Below are positions 19,558-34,100 of a stretch of DNA of 64,000 nucleotides, piece after piece (position 1 is the first letter of the stretch; each line of letters begins with the position of its first letter). Origin of the DNA: Granulicella sp. (lineage in GTDB: Bacteria; Acidobacteriota; Terriglobia; Terriglobales; Acidobacteriaceae); contig JANXYX010000010.1 of the NCBI GenBank assembly GCA_025408425.1, forward strand, positions 1 through 64,000, read 5' to 3'. The notes beneath the pieces are model-generated. The model had not been told where the DNA came from. It did no database searches and saw nothing but the letters and a program-made list of their open reading frames with translations. The translations under genes were made by a program, and so were the position numbers.

Positions 19558-20379
19558 ATGGACGCTCCTGCTATTTCGAGGCCGATTCTGGGGTTCTTCC
19601 GGCGGATTGTGCGGGGGTATTTTCGGCGGCATTTCCATGCGGTGAGAGTGCATGGGGCGGAGCGGTTTTACGAGGCTTCGTCTGCAGATTCGGAACCGCT
19701 GCTGGTTTATGCAAACCATAGTTCATGGTGGGATCCGATGGTTTCGATCCTGCTGGCGGCGGAGTTGATGCCAGGCCGTCAGCACTACGCTCCCATGGAT
19801 GCAGCGGCTCTGGAACGGTATGGGATTCTGCGGCGGGTGGGGATCTTTCCGGTGGAGATGAAGACCACGCGGGGAGCAGTGCAGTTTCTGCGGACAGGGG
19901 AAGCGATTCTGAAAGGTGGCGGGGTGTTGTGGGTGACGCCGCAGGGGCGGTTTGTCGATGTGCGCGTCAGGCCATTGGAGTTCAAGCCCGGGCTGGCGGC
20001 ATTGGCGGCGCGCGTTGGACCGTGTAAGGTGCTGCCGTTGGCGATTGAGTACCCGTTCTGGGATGAGCGGATTCCGGAGTGTCTGCTGGGGTTTGGGGAA
20101 CCAGTGCAGGTGGAAGCGGGCGAAGATGCCGAAGGATTGCAAATACGTCTGATTGCAGCACTGGAAGCAACGATGGAGGATTTGCGGGAGAGAGCCTTGC
20201 AGCGGAGGGCTGGGGAATTTGAGCAACTGGCGCGGGGGACGCTGGGAACGGGCGGGTTCTATGGGTTTGGGCAGCGAGTGAAAGCTATGGTGTTGCGGCG
20301 GCCTTACCGGGCTGAGCATACGGCGGTGGTGGGGACTGAGGCGGCGGTGTACGAGAAGGGTGGCAGGAACGATGCTTGA
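19558..20379 (+). CDS. PlsC-type 1-acylglycerol-3-phosphate acyltransferase family protein
   Basis: 273-aa acyltransferase. The HX4D catalytic motif appears as NHSSWWDP in the N-terminal third, followed by VGIFPVEMKTTRGAVQFL and a GGGVLWVTPQGRF block corresponding to the family's later acyl-acceptor motifs (FPEGT class, here modified). No long membrane segments are evident, so it is likely membrane-associated. ATG 19558 is chosen, 13 nt after the upstream stop; earlier in-frame starts would overlap the preceding gene. It lies between a carotenoid oxidase and a glycosyltransferase, where CrtO acts in staphyloxanthin synthesis, so acylation of a glycosylated carotenoid is plausible. True CrtO is a different fold, so this would be a functional analogue. 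Confidence 0.78.
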   Translation: MDAPAISRPILGFFRRIVRGYFRRHFHAVRVHGAERFYEASSADSEPLLVYANHSSWWDPMVSILLAAELMPGRQHYAPMDAAALERYGILRRVGIFPVEMKTTRGAVQFLRTGEAILKGGGVLWVTPQGRFVDVRVRPLEFKPGLAALAARVGPCKVLPLAIEYPFWDERIPECLLGFGEPVQVEAGEDAEGLQIRLIAALEATMEDLRERALQRRAGEFEQLARGTLGTGGFYGFGQRVKAMVLRRPYRAEHTAVVGTEAAVYEKGGRNDA

Positions 20380-21505
20380 TGCGTTCACGATCGCGATGAT
20401 GTTGTGTGCGCTTGCTCCGACAGTGCTGTTCTGTGTCAACTTGCGGCGGTATCTGGTTCCAGTTGCGGCGGGATCGATTCCCTTGCCTGCTGTGTCGGTG
20501 CTGATTCCTGCTCGGGATGAAGAGGGCGCGATTGGAGCTGCAGTCGCGAGTGTGCTCGCGAGTACTGGGATGGAGTTCGAAGTGGTGGTGATGGATGACT
20601 GCTCGACCGATCGGACTGGGGCGATTGTGGCGGAGATGGCCGCTGCGGATGGAAGGGTGAGGCTGGAACAGGCTCCGGTGCTGCCGAAGGGGTGGAATGG
20701 GAAGCAGCATGCCTGCTGGGCTTTGGCGCATGTGGCTCGGCATGAGTTGATGTGCTTTGTGGATGCGGATGTAAGGCTGGAGCCCGAGGCGTTGGCGCGG
20801 ATGGCTGCGTTTCTGGTGCGAGGAGATCGTGGACTTGTGAGCGGCTTTCCGCGGCAGGTGACCGGAACCTGGTTGGAGTGGCTGCTACTGCCATTGATCC
20901 ACTTTGTGCTGCTGGGCTTTCTGCCGGTGGAGAGAATGAGGAAGTCGACCGACCCTTCGATGGCTGCTGGTTGCGGGCAGTTCATGCTGGTGCGGCGAGA
21001 GGACTACTTTGCTTGCGGTGGTCATGAGGAGATCAAGGCCACGATGCATGATGGGTTGTTGCTACCACGGTTGTTTCGGCAGCATGGTTTCAAGACGGAT
21101 CTTGCGGACTTGACCTCACTGGCGACTTGCCGGATGTATCGGAATGCTGGTCAAGTTTGGCAGGGACTGGCGAAGAATGCGACGGAAGGGATTGCTGATC
21201 CGGTGCGGATTTTTCCAATTAGTGTGCTGCTGGTGATGGGGCAGGTGTTGCCGTTCTGCTTTGCTGGGTGGTTTGCTGTGCGGGGTGGGGCTCCAGTAGC
21301 GGTTTGGGTGTATGTGCTGGTTGGGATAGCTGGCGCGTGGTTGCCGCGGGTGCTGGCGGCGGTGCGGTTCCGGCAGAGTTGGCGGGGGGCTTTGCTGCAT
21401 CCAGTGGGGATTATGACGCTGCTGGCTGTGCAGTGGTATGCGTTGACGCGGAAGCTGATGGGTGGGGCTGTGAGCTGGAAGAGCAGGGCTTACGCGGGGG
21501 AGTGA
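20372..21505 (+). CDS. Family 2 glycosyltransferase (CrtQ/HpnB-like)
   Basis: Membrane-bound GT2 glycosyltransferase (377 aa). It has an N-terminal hydrophobic segment, the GT-A core VSVLIPARDEEGAIGAAVAS, DDCSTDRTG, the DXD motif in CFVDADVRLEP, and several C-terminal transmembrane helices (about 280-370). The start at 20372 overlaps the upstream stop by 8 nt and is preceded by AGGAAC. In an operon with carotenoid oxidation genes it resembles CrtQ, which glucosylates a carotenoid carboxylate. It also resembles HpnB, the hopanoid-associated glycosyltransferase, and no hopanoid genes are seen here to decide. Confidence 0.8.
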   Translation: MLDAFTIAMMLCALAPTVLFCVNLRRYLVPVAAGSIPLPAVSVLIPARDEEGAIGAAVASVLASTGMEFEVVVMDDCSTDRTGAIVAEMAAADGRVRLEQAPVLPKGWNGKQHACWALAHVARHELMCFVDADVRLEPEALARMAAFLVRGDRGLVSGFPRQVTGTWLEWLLLPLIHFVLLGFLPVERMRKSTDPSMAAGCGQFMLVRREDYFACGGHEEIKATMHDGLLLPRLFRQHGFKTDLADLTSLATCRMYRNAGQVWQGLAKNATEGIADPVRIFPISVLLVMGQVLPFCFAGWFAVRGGAPVAVWVYVLVGIAGAWLPRVLAAVRFRQSWRGALLHPVGIMTLLAVQWYALTRKLMGGAVSWKSRAYAGE

Positions 21506-21530: not shown

Positions 21531-21588
21531 TGCGAATGCCCACCTTAGCGACGATGAAGCTGTCGCGAAGATGGGCACCCGGACTGGT
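21531..21588. repeat. Interspersed palindromic repeat, family B, copy 1
   Basis: Imperfect palindrome of the form GCGAATGCCCAC ... ATGGGCACCCGG with a central GACGATGAAGCTGTC. It lies in the short gap between the glycosyltransferase and the converging nucleoside permease gene. Other copies are at 27475-27517, 29821-29840 (partial), 30235-30281 and 33371-33418. Confidence 0.6.
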
Positions 21589-21599
21589 GGGACAGGTAG

Positions 21600-22703
21600 T
21601 TAGTTGGTGGGGACCTGGTTGCGGGTTTGGGGCCAGTTGGTGACGAGGTTGTCGACTATGACGTGGCCTACGCGGTAGGCGCTGTCGAGGGCGGGAATGT
21701 AGGCGGAGTATTTTGTGACCTTGGTTTCGGCCAGAGATTCGGCGGCGGTGAGGCCGATGCGTTGCTGATCGTAGTTGCTGGCGGTGCGGAGGACGAGGAC
21801 TCGGTTGATATCGAGTTTGTGGGCTTTGGCGAGCCAGGTGAGGGACTGGAGGGTACCGGTGTCTTCCATGCCGCAGACGGCGTAGGTGGCTTTGCCGTCA
21901 GTCTGGTATTTGACCCAGTCGCGGGCCCACTGGTTCATAAGTTTGCCGTGCCAGAAGGTGGCGGCGGAGAGGTTGTCTCCGCGGAGGACGAAGGGTGGGC
22001 GATGAGCGGCGGTGCCTTCGTACTGCTGGCGGCGCTCGGCTATCTGAGGGGTGTCGGGGAGGGTGATGTCTTTGGTGAGGTTGAAGGCCCAGGAGACGAG
22101 TGAAGTGTTGAGGTGGTAGATGTTGCCGTCGTCGCCGAAGCGGGCGGTGCGGGGCTGCTCGTACGGGGTGGATTTTCCGAGGGGGACGTAACCGGACTTC
22201 CAGTTGGCAGGAATTTCTCTTGCGTCGATTTCATGGGAGAGGTCGCCGTCGACGATGTAGTCAGACCAGACGGCTGAGCCGAGGGAGCCGACTTCGGGGT
22301 CGATTCCGGCGATACCGGCGACGAGGAAGTAAGCGTGGGTGAGATCGAAGCGGGGGTCGAGGCCGAGAGCCATGATGGAGGCAGCGGCGCGGGTGTTCCC
22401 GACTCCGGTCAGGACACCGAGGACGCCGGTCTGGCGGTTGATGCGGAAGTCGTGGTAGCCGGCGGGGTTGGGGAGGATGGTATCGAGATGCTGGCGCTCG
22501 ACCCAGAACTGGTACTCGCCGGGGATGTCGCCGGTATCGGCACCCTGCTCGAACATGTTGATGACGACGACTTTGATCTCGATGGGCTTCTGGGGTGATT
22601 GCGCCAGGGCGCAGGTGGTTGCCAGCAGGAGGAGAGTGGAAAGGAGTCGCATGCATGATGGTAGCAAGAGTGGGATTGATGAAGCTGCAGGTTTCGGTTG
22701 CAT
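21600..22703 (-). CDS. Secreted purine nucleoside permease family protein (NUP)
   Basis: 367-aa protein of the NUP family (first known from yeast purine nucleoside permease), with homology to nucleoside phosphorylases. It has a signal peptide (LLSTLLLLATTCALAQS) and the family blocks KVVVINMFEQGADTGDIPGE, GVGNTRAAASIMALGLDPRFDL, AGIDPEVGSLGSAVWSDYIVDGDL and YAVCGMEDTGTL. The ATG at 22703 is fixed by AAGGAG six bases upstream; the next ATG at 22652 has no such site. Export suggests action on extracytoplasmic nucleosides. The neighbours give no further clue. Whether it transports, binds or cleaves nucleosides is not settled by sequence. Confidence 0.85.
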   Translation of the reverse strand: MQPKPAASSIPLLLPSCMRLLSTLLLLATTCALAQSPQKPIEIKVVVINMFEQGADTGDIPGEYQFWVERQHLDTILPNPAGYHDFRINRQTGVLGVLTGVGNTRAAASIMALGLDPRFDLTHAYFLVAGIAGIDPEVGSLGSAVWSDYIVDGDLSHEIDAREIPANWKSGYVPLGKSTPYEQPRTARFGDDGNIYHLNTSLVSWAFNLTKDITLPDTPQIAERRQQYEGTAAHRPPFVLRGDNLSAATFWHGKLMNQWARDWVKYQTDGKATYAVCGMEDTGTLQSLTWLAKAHKLDINRVLVLRTASNYDQQRIGLTAAESLAETKVTKYSAYIPALDSAYRVGHVIVDNLVTNWPQTRNQVPTN

Positions 22704-27474: not shown

Positions 27475-27517
27475 GGCGATGCCCACACATCAGAATCGAT
27501 GTATGGGGCACCCGGCT
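27475..27517. repeat. Interspersed palindromic repeat, family B, copy 2
   Basis: GATGCCCACACATC-agaat-CGATGTATGGGGCACC with the trailing CCGGCT shared by the other copies. It lies between the small membrane protein gene and the helicase stop codon. Confidence 0.65.
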
Positions 27518-29820: not shown

Positions 29821-29840
29821 TGAATGGGGCACCCGGCTTG
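29821..29840. repeat. Interspersed palindromic repeat, family B, partial copy 3
   Basis: Only the right arm, TGAATGGGGCACCCGGCTTG, is retained; the left arm seen in other copies is missing or diverged. Confidence 0.45.
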
Positions 29841-29866: not shown

Positions 29867-29991
29867 CGGAGTTTGTTGGTTGAAAGGTTCGAGCAGTATG
29901 GAGGGTCGAGTTAGTCGGGGTCCTTCGCTGCACTCAGGATGACGGCAAAAACAAACAAAAGCAGATCCTCCGCTGCGCGAAGGATGACAAT
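29867..29991. repeat. Interspersed repeat, family A, copy 1
   Basis: About 125 bp beginning CCCCGGAGTTTGTTGG and including GAAAGGTTCGA, GGGGTCCTTCGCTGCACTC, AGGATGACGGCAA and ending GCAGATCCTCCGC plus GCGAAGGATGACAATG. The two halves (TCCTTCGCTGC and GCGCGAAGGA) are inverted relative to each other, so the element can fold. Copies lie at 30304-30444, 32562-32681 and, degenerate, at 35835-35895. Confidence 0.7.
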
Positions 29992-30234
29992 GTTTGCTGA
30001 AGGGTCACATTTGGTTTGATTTAGGCGGCGAAGGTTTTGTGGCTCGTGGTTTGGTCGCCTTGTCCTGCTAGCAGGCCTGCGATGGAGATGTCTTCGTCGA
30101 GGGCTTCCGCGATAGCGGAAGACTACTGGGAGGGTGTTACTTTACTGTACTTCTCGCCCTACTTCGCGACGAAGGTGCGAACAATGGGCACCAGAGATTT
30201 AGCGGTGGGTTGGAGGAGAGCGGTTCGCGCCGGC

Positions 30235-30281
30235 GCGAATGCCCACTCATGCGATGAGACTGCATGGATGGGGCACCGGTT
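30235..30281. repeat. Interspersed palindromic repeat, family B, copy 4
   Basis: GCGAATGCCCACTCATGCGA then TGAGACTGCATGGATGGGG and CACCGG: both arms and the central GATGAG are present. Confidence 0.6.
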
Positions 30282-30303: not shown

Positions 30304-30444
30304 TGGAGTTTGTTGGTTGAAAGGTTCGAACGGTGGGGTGGTGTTGAGTTCTTCGGGGTCCTTCGCTGCGCTCAGGATGACAGCAAGAACTTAGAACAAG
30401 GGCAAGAGCGAACAGCAGGTCCTCCGCTGAGCGAAGGATGACAA
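30304..30444. repeat. Interspersed repeat, family A, copy 2
   Basis: Shares GGAGTTTGTTGGTTGAAAGG, GGGGTCCTTCGCTGCGCTCA, GGATGACAGCAAGAAC and the final GAGCGAAGGATGACAATG with copy 1, with a 20-base longer middle section. Its right end abuts the leader of der. Confidence 0.7.
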
Positions 30445-30545
30445 TGTCTGGAGAGGAAGACAATGTCTTCGGTGTTATCGGCGGCGATTCGTTGCACATC
30501 CCTATAATGGTTAATGGCGCTGCGGCGACGAGAGAAGGCACTCCT

Positions 30546-32561: not shown

Positions 32562-32681
32562 GGGTGAAAGGTTCGAGCTGTATGGGTCGGTCGAGTCTCT
32601 CGGGGTCCTTCGCTGCGCTCAGGATGACGGCAAGAACTTAGAGCAAAAGCAGATCCTCCTCTTCGCGAAGGATGACAACTA
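32562..32681. repeat. Interspersed repeat, family A, copy 3
   Basis: GGTGAAAGGTTCGAGCTG, CTCGGGGTCCTTCGCTGCG, CTCAGGATGACGGCAAGAAC and CGCGAAGGATGACAACTA. It fills most of the gap between the converging der and trmFO genes and touches the trmFO stop codon. Confidence 0.7.
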
Positions 32682-34100
32682 ATCATGTAGCCAGGCGTTC
32701 CAGGCTTCGAGGGCTCGGTCGCATTGGATTTTGTGGCGTTCTTTTTTGTCGCGGATTTTTTTGCGGAGGTCTTCTTCGAGAGGTGGGAGGAGGTCGAAGG
32801 TGATGTTGGCGGGGGTGAATTTTTTGATTTCGGTGTGGGTGATGTAGTGGGTGAGGGAGCCGTTGGCGGTGAGGCGGGGGGCGGGGGTGGGTTGGGTGCC
32901 GTGGGCGAGGGCTGCGGCGTAGCGGCCGGCGAGGAGGCCGGAGGCGATGGATTCGGTGTAGCCTTCGACGCCCGAGAGTTGGCCGGCGATCATGATGCTG
33001 GGGTGGGCTTTGAGCTGGAGGGTTTCGGTGAGGAGCGAGGGTGCGTGGATGTAGGTGTTGCGGTGGATCTGGCCGTAGCGGAGGAAGGTGGCGTGCTCGA
33101 GGCCGGGGATGAGGCGGAGGACGCGGGCTTGCTCGCCGAATTTGAGGTGGTTCTGGAAGCCTACGAGGTTGTAGGAGTCGGCGCGTAGGTTTTCCTGGCG
33201 GAGTTGGACGCAGGCGTAGGGCCAGCGGCCGGTCTTGGGATCGGTGAGGCCGGCGGGCTTCATGGGGCCGAAGCGGAGGGTGTCGCGGCCGCGGCGGGCG
33301 GTCTCTTCGATGGGGAGGCAGCCTTCGAAGTATTGGAGCTTTTCGGGGGTGGTGGAGGGTTCCGTAGTGGTGCCACCCACACATGACGATGAGGCCGTCA
33401 TGTATGGGGCACCCGGCTCAGTGGAGACGGTGGGGATTTGTTCCCAGGATTTTGGGGGGACGGCTTCGGCGGTGGTCAGGGCGTCGAGGAAGGTGTCGTA
33501 CTCCTCTTTGGTGAAGGGGCAGTTGATGTAGTCGGCGGTGCCTTTGTCCCAGCGGGCGGCGAAGTAGACCTTGTCCCTATCGATGGTGGTGGCGTCGACG
33601 ATGGGGGAGATGGAGTCGTAGAAGGCGAGGTGGTCGGAGCCGGTGAGGCGCTGGAGTTCGGCGGCGAGGGCGGGGCTGGTGAGGGGGCCAGAGGCGAGGA
33701 TGGTGATGGTGTCGGGGTCGTTCTCGTCGAGGGTGGTGACCTCTTCGCGATGGACTGTGATGCGGGGCTCGGCGGCGATGCGGGCGGCTACGCGGGCGGA
33801 GAAGAGTTCGCGGTCTACGGCGAGGGCATGGCCGGCGGGGACGGCGGTGGCGTCGGCGTCGGCGAGGAGGAAGGAGTTGGCGCGGCGCATCTCCTGCTTG
33901 AGGAGCCAGGGGGCGGAGTTCTCGGACTCGGACTTGAGGGAGTTGGAGCAGACGAGTTCGGCGAAGTCGGAGGTCTGGTGGGCCTCGGTGGAGCGGATGG
34001 GGCGCATCTCGTAGAGGTGGACTTCGCATCCGGCTGCGGCGGCTTGAAGCGCGGCTTCGGGGCCGGCTAATCCGCCGCCGATTACTTTGATCTTCTTCAT
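32679..34100 (-). CDS. trmFO: Methylenetetrahydrofolate-tRNA-(uracil-5)-methyltransferase TrmFO
   Basis: Folate/FAD-dependent enzyme (473 aa) that makes 5-methyluridine at position 54 of tRNA. It begins IKVIGGGLAGPEAALQAA, the FAD motif. The two catalytic cysteines known from this family are present: Cys51 in ELVCSNSLKSES and Cys261 in YFEGCLPIEE. The usual length is about 435-450 aa. The excess lies largely at residues about 220-253, where a copy of repeat family B (residues 228-243) is translated in frame just before Cys261. The rest, including GRDTLRFGPMKPAGL and GVEGYTESIASGLLAG, is normal, so the enzyme is probably functional. Confidence 0.92.
   Translation of the reverse strand: MKKIKVIGGGLAGPEAALQAAAAGCEVHLYEMRPIRSTEAHQTSDFAELVCSNSLKSESENSAPWLLKQEMRRANSFLLADADATAVPAGHALAVDRELFSARVAARIAAEPRITVHREEVTTLDENDPDTITILASGPLTSPALAAELQRLTGSDHLAFYDSISPIVDATTIDRDKVYFAARWDKGTADYINCPFTKEEYDTFLDALTTAEAVPPKSWEQIPTVSTEPGAPYMTASSSCVGGTTTEPSTTPEKLQYFEGCLPIEETARRGRDTLRFGPMKPAGLTDPKTGRWPYACVQLRQENLRADSYNLVGFQNHLKFGEQARVLRLIPGLEHATFLRYGQIHRNTYIHAPSLLTETLQLKAHPSIMIAGQLSGVEGYTESIASGLLAGRYAAALAHGTQPTPAPRLTANGSLTHYITHTEIKKFTPANITFDLLPPLEEDLRKKIRDKKERHKIQCDRALEAWNAWLHD
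33371..33418. repeat. Interspersed palindromic repeat, family B, copy 5, inside trmFO
   Basis: TGCCACCCACACATGACGAT followed by GAGGCCGTCATGTATGGGG and CACCCGGCT: the most regular palindrome of the family, with inner arms CATGACG and CGTCATG. It is read in frame in trmFO as residues about 228-243, encoding EPGAPYMTASSSCVGG, a segment not expected in TrmFO. Confidence 0.75.

Follow-up and report, generated by a model that had tools for sequence, protein, structure and literature searches.

The trmFO gene in the 64,000-nucleotide window (the whole stretch of Granulicella sp. DNA analysed here) contains a short palindrome that has relatives in nearby intergenic gaps and lies in frame within the coding sequence of the enzyme. 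This raises the question of how a dispersed repeat comes to be read in frame within a core enzyme, and whether it reached that position as mobile DNA. Comparisons of sequences across the genus suggest that this is probably a case of short, probably mobile DNA being read as protein in flexible loops of core enzymes in soil Acidobacteria.

An in-frame palindrome in TrmFO and the repeat family to which it belongs

The trmFO coding sequence, with its stop codon, occupies 32679..34100 (- strand) and specifies a 473-residue protein of the Edaphobacter/Granulicella group. Its identity is given by the equivalog profile NF003739 (608.9 bits), with the fold and the region of the invariant cysteine likewise those of TrmFO. 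The match to Thermus TrmFO (3g5q), which is without the insert at residues 221-256, splits into residues 1-221 and 253-471. The inserted loop, encoded at 33333..33440 (-), lies between WE(220) and YFEGCLP. Within it, the palindrome at 33370..33416 (-) is read in frame as residues 229-244 (PGAPYMTASSSCVGGT), i.e. only 16 of the 36 inserted residues, and its coded residues end 17 positions before Cys261 (codon 33318..33320, -), which is invariant in 40 alignment rows. A sequence-only reading had put the segment at 33371-33418, right to within 2 bases; its in-frame reading likewise stands, with the residue numbers 228-243 and the spacing of about 20 residues from the cysteine corrected to the values above. 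From the alignment we take Cys261 to be the likely counterpart of Bacillus subtilis Cys226. A major catalytic role is ascribed to the latter residue in the excerpted text of PMC4081110.

In an AlphaFold2 model of the protein from 40 rows (mean pLDDT 76.3), residues 222-257 have pLDDT below 50, and the insert, forming neither helix nor strand, is the part with the lowest confidence; the idea in the same reading that a structure might place it in a surface loop is thus supported by the model. The nearest solved structures are those of Thermus TrmFO, which superpose with an rmsd of 12.0-12.6 over 394-406 residues at Z-scores of about 36 (e.g. 3g5r, Z 36.4, rmsd 12.0 over 394), and as the rmsd is this large despite such Z-scores, the placement of domains in the model is unreliable.

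The palindrome belongs to a family, here family B, of elements of about 31-48 nt recognised by their ends and structure: the outer ends GGTGCCCCA and TGGG are conserved, and the inner stem is variable yet complementary. The 12-base end TGGGGCACCCGG has 50 exact copies in the host genome (G000) against none in backward controls, and the hairpin pattern GGTGCCCCA(14-34)TGGG has 60 matches against one, bearing out the expectation that a genome search would find a multi-copy element. A covariance model was built from 20 copies, with the trmFO copy left out, and the consensus structure for the covariation test was drawn on these same 20 sequences. In this alignment 90.8% of cells pair and nine of the 16 stem pairs have changed on both sides (reached by 2 of 500 shuffles); none of the 500 attains the covariation score, whereas 71 attain the count of further pair types, which is therefore unexceptional. 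The model scores the trmFO palindrome at 43.7 bits (E 1.1e-9). Folded as RNA on its own, this palindrome stands out only modestly from its shuffles (z -1.95; 8 of 200 equally good), so the case rests on the repeat family and not on one hairpin. Its exact 45-mer occurs a single time in the window (0 in 100 shuffles).

Among 61 genomes searched with the model, family B is present in all 37 of the genus, each with between one and at least 101 matches, versus 3 of 24 others; scoring was limited to 100 candidates per genome, which caps the high counts. Copies number up to about a hundred or more per Edaphobacter/Granulicella genome. Outside the genus but within the same order, matches lie near Y1 transposase genes in two genomes (L160, L170). 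In G000, 46 of the 57 pattern matches examined fall outside ORFs that have a family match, marking family B as a high-copy, mostly intergenic palindrome. A special open-frame property of these palindromes was considered and rejected: on average 3.98 of six frames are open in 44 distinct elements, against 4.41 in shuffles.

Further copies within the window, all on the - strand, are found where the sequence-only reading had noted matches (21531, 27475 and 30235). The first, at 21536..21582 (65.5 bits), lies between ORFs 20360-21505 and 21600-22703; the second, at 27479..27515 (40.7 bits), has a short stem and sits 29 bp past the 3' end (27544) of a 711-aa ORF; the third, at 30239..30279 (48.7 bits), is upstream of a GTPase ORF at 30438, and a 326-aa antisense ORF over it is taken as spurious. 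The partial copy that had been reported at 29821 corresponds to the conserved 13-base end at 29824..29836 (E 0.96). Rfam gave no match at gathering score within the window. Other interspersed repeats, with units of 90 and 40 nt, occupy intergenic gaps at 29877-29996, 30315-30450 and 32562-32684; the ATG predicted for the GTPase ORF falls within a repeat copy at 30411-30450, and this start may therefore be misplaced.

Family B within TrmFO, MutS and MnmG, and orthologous sites that are free of it

The trmFO loop could be read in 35 of the 37 genus members. Nine of these carry family B in it: G000, G017, G022, G008, G019, G010, G001, G027 and a decayed copy in G026. Support from the model is at E <1e-4 in six, with 0.0021 in G027, 0.045 in G001 and 0.33 in G026. 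The common element-free allele has 12 residues (such as KFPVDGTANKLQ; 12 of 35), and there are loops of three residues in two congeners, of 13-17 residues in five and of at least 25 residues, again without family B, in seven. The three-residue form is also that of the outgroups Silvibacterium, Terriglobus albidus and Paracidobacterium. Distant relatives and no fewer than 14 of the 35 congeners hence lack the insert, in line with what the sequence-only reading had supposed an ortholog alignment might reveal. In at least two genomes, G033 (G033:C25:57399) and G010 (G010:C33:25078; loci L040 and L060), the same loop contains, in frame, the unrelated repeat TCATYCTGAGCG...CGAAGRA. These genomes hold 93 and 115 copies of it, respectively, against none in backward controls; G010 thus has both repeat families in one loop. 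The proposal that a spreading palindrome created the insert accordingly stands as regards the family and its in-frame element. It does not extend to the whole insert as the product of one insertion, given that the palindrome supplies 16 of 36 residues, that long loops exist without family B and that another repeat occupies the site elsewhere.

A survey of named records, with 80 loci fetched and the loop obtained by pattern in 68, places the group in Edaphobacter and Granulicella. As a separate observation, Edaphobacter modestus (L209) has a TrmFO of 530 residues, the loop of which appears to be made up of at least two repeat copies (RHSERSEESQ, CHPERSGEATQSKD).

The sequence-only reading was right in naming TrmFO as a host, but not if it is taken as the sole one: trmFO is one of several. 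In G000, 11 of the 57 pattern matches examined sit within ORFs with a family match: one each in trmFO, MnmG and an NAD(P)H-hydrate epimerase/dehydratase, two each in MutS and a carboxyltransferase, and four in three PMT/ArnT-like glycosyltransferases; copies near ORF ends (e.g. L024, L120, L129, L132) were left out of this count. In the glycosyltransferases (L002, L013, L015) the partial family match stops just before the element, and L013 has at least two. Across the genus, 12 family-B hits lie inside MutS ORFs, from 8 of 22 loci, and five inside ORFs of MnmG, a relative of TrmFO, from 4 of 17, in both cases with model E up to 0.05 and with some of the loci counted containing part of the gene only. 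Throughout, in-gene elements are read in various frames and from either strand.

In MutS (L125:1506-4403 (+); loci L283-L306) the in-frame elements recur at about three sites, around residues 207, 465 and 713 when numbered as in G000, and in MnmG (L118:2-1864 (-); L265, L266, L267) they also fall at about three. The MutS site near residue 465 has a model hit in G000, G001, G011 and G016 and look-alike peptides with no model hit in G018 and G008, and is free of the insert in ten genomes (G014, G002, G017, G013, G010, G003, G015, G022, G019 and G005). In a tblastn search with G000 MutS, residues of about 465-495 matched repeat copies elsewhere. The 966-residue MutS of G000 also has an apparent second repeat inside it (VLRSAKDDN).

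History of the element at the trmFO site

These distributions could have arisen through several arrivals at the trmFO loop or through one. On the gene tree of TrmFO, the presence of family B needs eight changes for nine carriers, which does not support a single clean insertion, although this tree comes from a single gene and leaves 10 of its 32 inner branches open. The copies in G008 and G019 are 5 edits from a copy of their own genome, versus at least 9 from any trmFO ortholog compared, a small margin in that G000 copies come within 6 and 7 edits of them. A rule that each trmFO copy resembles the copies of its own genome was set aside, the picture being mixed: in G001 and G022 the own genome is tied with other genomes for the nearest copy, in G000 the nearest copy is a trmFO ortholog, and in G027 there is nothing near in the own genome. 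The G001 trmFO copy is letter-for-letter a non-trmFO copy of G008. We take repeated insertion or replacement at trmFO, together with some shared descent, as likely.

A rival history has a single early entry into the loop followed by inheritance, losses by deletion and compensatory changes that kept the hairpin, be it through selection on mRNA or DNA structure or through template-switch correction between the arms; it is compatible with a REP-like nature of the element. It draws on the common frame and orientation of the eight clear loops, i.e. all carriers but G026, where the orientation is the same and decay leaves the frame not callable. Moreover, in the five trmFO copies of equal length all 65 stem cells pair and six of the 13 pairs differ on both sides, a level that none of 500 shuffles reaches. 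The elements of G000 and G017 (L031, L032) are identical at 43 of 44 bases, and their stem type, with one mismatch allowed, is found in these two of 60 genus genomes only. Against a single entry stand the eight changes on the tree, the affinity of the G008 and G019 copies to their own genomes and the unrelated repeat in the same loop of G033 and G010; we therefore consider this history rather doubtful, although it deserves to be kept in view.

The pair G000 and G017 fits neither scheme neatly. The loop flanks of the two are dissimilar (on the 5' side 8 of 15 agree), fourfold sites of their trmFO genes agree at 159 of 219, and they lie apart on the TrmFO tree. With near-identical elements, different flanks and this separation, simple insertion is no explanation. 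A comparison in steps of 25 residues puts G017 closer to G000 than G007, G020 and G035 are over residues 201-250; a local exchange may lie behind the likeness, but the flanks beside the element are different.

It could also be argued that the hairpin serves the trmFO mRNA itself, for instance as a pause site or regulator, with its likeness to the repeats secondary. The arms do covary at the orthologous trmFO site, but copies elsewhere in the genome covary alike, making covariation a property of the family, and at least 14 of the 35 congeners manage with a loop of three or 12 residues that has no hairpin; an mRNA function of this kind is thus quite improbable. Lastly, the notion that the loop grew as ordinary low-complexity sequence and resembles the repeats by chance, for which one might cite its length and variability in many congeners, is scarcely credible: chance resemblance is ruled out by the shuffles and the independently built model, and that model also finds matches in the trmFO loops of eight other congeners (weak in G001 and G026) and in MutS and MnmG.

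Adjacency to one RAYT subclass and parallels in known systems

If family B is mobile, a likely agent is found beside it. The Y1 profile PF01797 has seven matches in G000, and a search of 23 genus genomes gave 53. Of these 53 loci, 26 were examined: the seven in G000 plus a further 19, for the most part the top match of each genome. A family-B hairpin lies within 300 bp of 12 of these 26 ORFs, where the chance expectation is well under one (at the G000 density of 60 in 4.23 Mb). These 12 are exactly the ORFs with an HFITFSC-like N-terminal motif, i.e. one RAYT subclass among the 26 examined. On a tree, flanked and unflanked ORFs are separated by two changes, at a place where long branches meet and many forks are open. 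The signatures HxHLL and Y[IM]xxNPV, which we take to be the HUH motif and the catalytic tyrosine, are both visible by eye in 10 of the 12, and L167 and L169 look degraded. The profile NF047646 (REP_Tyr_transpos) is above cut-off in all six flanked ORFs tested. Of three RAYT-like genes tested that have no family B close by, two are above it as well, so passing it is no predictor of family B. The stem type is the same on both sides of the ORF in L157, L161, L165 and L167 and differs in L158, a hint that stem subfamilies are specific to individual RAYTs. Family B lacks the GTAG tag of classical REPs: GTAG/CTAC occurs within 14 nt in 3 of 56 cases on the 5' side and 8 of 56 on the 3' side, against 5.7% of random 14-mers of the window.

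Family B would then be non-autonomous and depend for its copying on a cognate HUH tyrosine transposase (RAYT), with those insertions that keep the frame surviving in disordered surface loops. Its movement is inferred from presence and absence among congeners. We regard it as very likely that the TrmFO segment is such a REP-like palindromic element, probably mobilised by a RAYT and tolerated in surface loops.

In-frame palindromes within genes are already known, as Rickettsia palindromic elements (RPEs) and as intragenic REPs. The former, lying in frame within protein genes, were reportedly described by Ogata and colleagues in 2000. They are inserted in frame in genes of conserved proteins at exposed sites, and, as in the trmFO loop with family B, different repeat groups lie near the same site of orthologs; whereas RPEs measure 100-150 bp and belong to Rickettsia, family B is shorter (copies of 38-47 nt), acidobacterial and found beside a RAYT (PMC3767692 and PMC2229807, as excerpted). 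In the excerpts of PMC3733652, short palindromes, GTAG and CGTC REPs, lie like family B inside ORFs, many of them DNA repair genes and some tRNA pseudouridine synthase genes; recB of two Xanthomonas species has different REPs at about the same site, and the intragenic R. conorii RPE-4 and RPE-6 are equated with CGTC REPs. GTAG REPs go with RAYT genes and carry their GTAG tag, which by count family B does not, while CGTC repeats are not associated with transposases, in contrast to the RAYT-adjacent family B. The same excerpts name no Acidobacteria among the intragenic cases and describe a distinct acidobacterial group of tyrosine transposases (TIRYT), bordered by inverted repeats of another kind and present in T. 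saanensis, K. versatilis, A. capsulatum and G. mallensis.

In the REPtron, as presented in parts of PMC8266576, palindromes border the HUH Y1 transposase gene TnpA-REP, as they do here, and transposase groups are proposed to have co-evolved with their REPs; the GTAG motif is treated for two of the three models there, and family B is without it. The parts consulted of PMC3174227 (many short repeats in Solibacter) and PMC6006769 (Y1 classes, some in Acidobacteria) do not describe family B, and, among the papers that searches of an open-access library listed, no title or opening abstract line deals with intragenic REPs of Edaphobacter/Granulicella or with a TrmFO insert. As far as such searches show, what is new is family B itself, a RAYT neighbourhood without GTAG, and the comparison, across the genus, of TrmFO, MutS and MnmG sites that have or lack the element.

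We tentatively suggest, as a conjecture on which we would not lean heavily, that loops of core enzymes are a regular habitat of these elements and that the copies in trmFO, with arms covarying at this coding site, stay live palindromes, either through repeated replacement of one resident subfamily by another or through upkeep of the hairpin by the element's own copying or correction. If true, a single stretch of DNA would be shaped jointly by a mobile element and by the protein that it encodes. Family B also explains why TrmFO, MutS and MnmG vary oddly in length in this soil group, a variation by which annotation and phylogeny could be misled. With loops that have the element and loops that lack it, several stem subfamilies and a probable cognate transposase, this free-living and genus-rich group offers a test bed for the passage of mobile palindromes into protein sequence.
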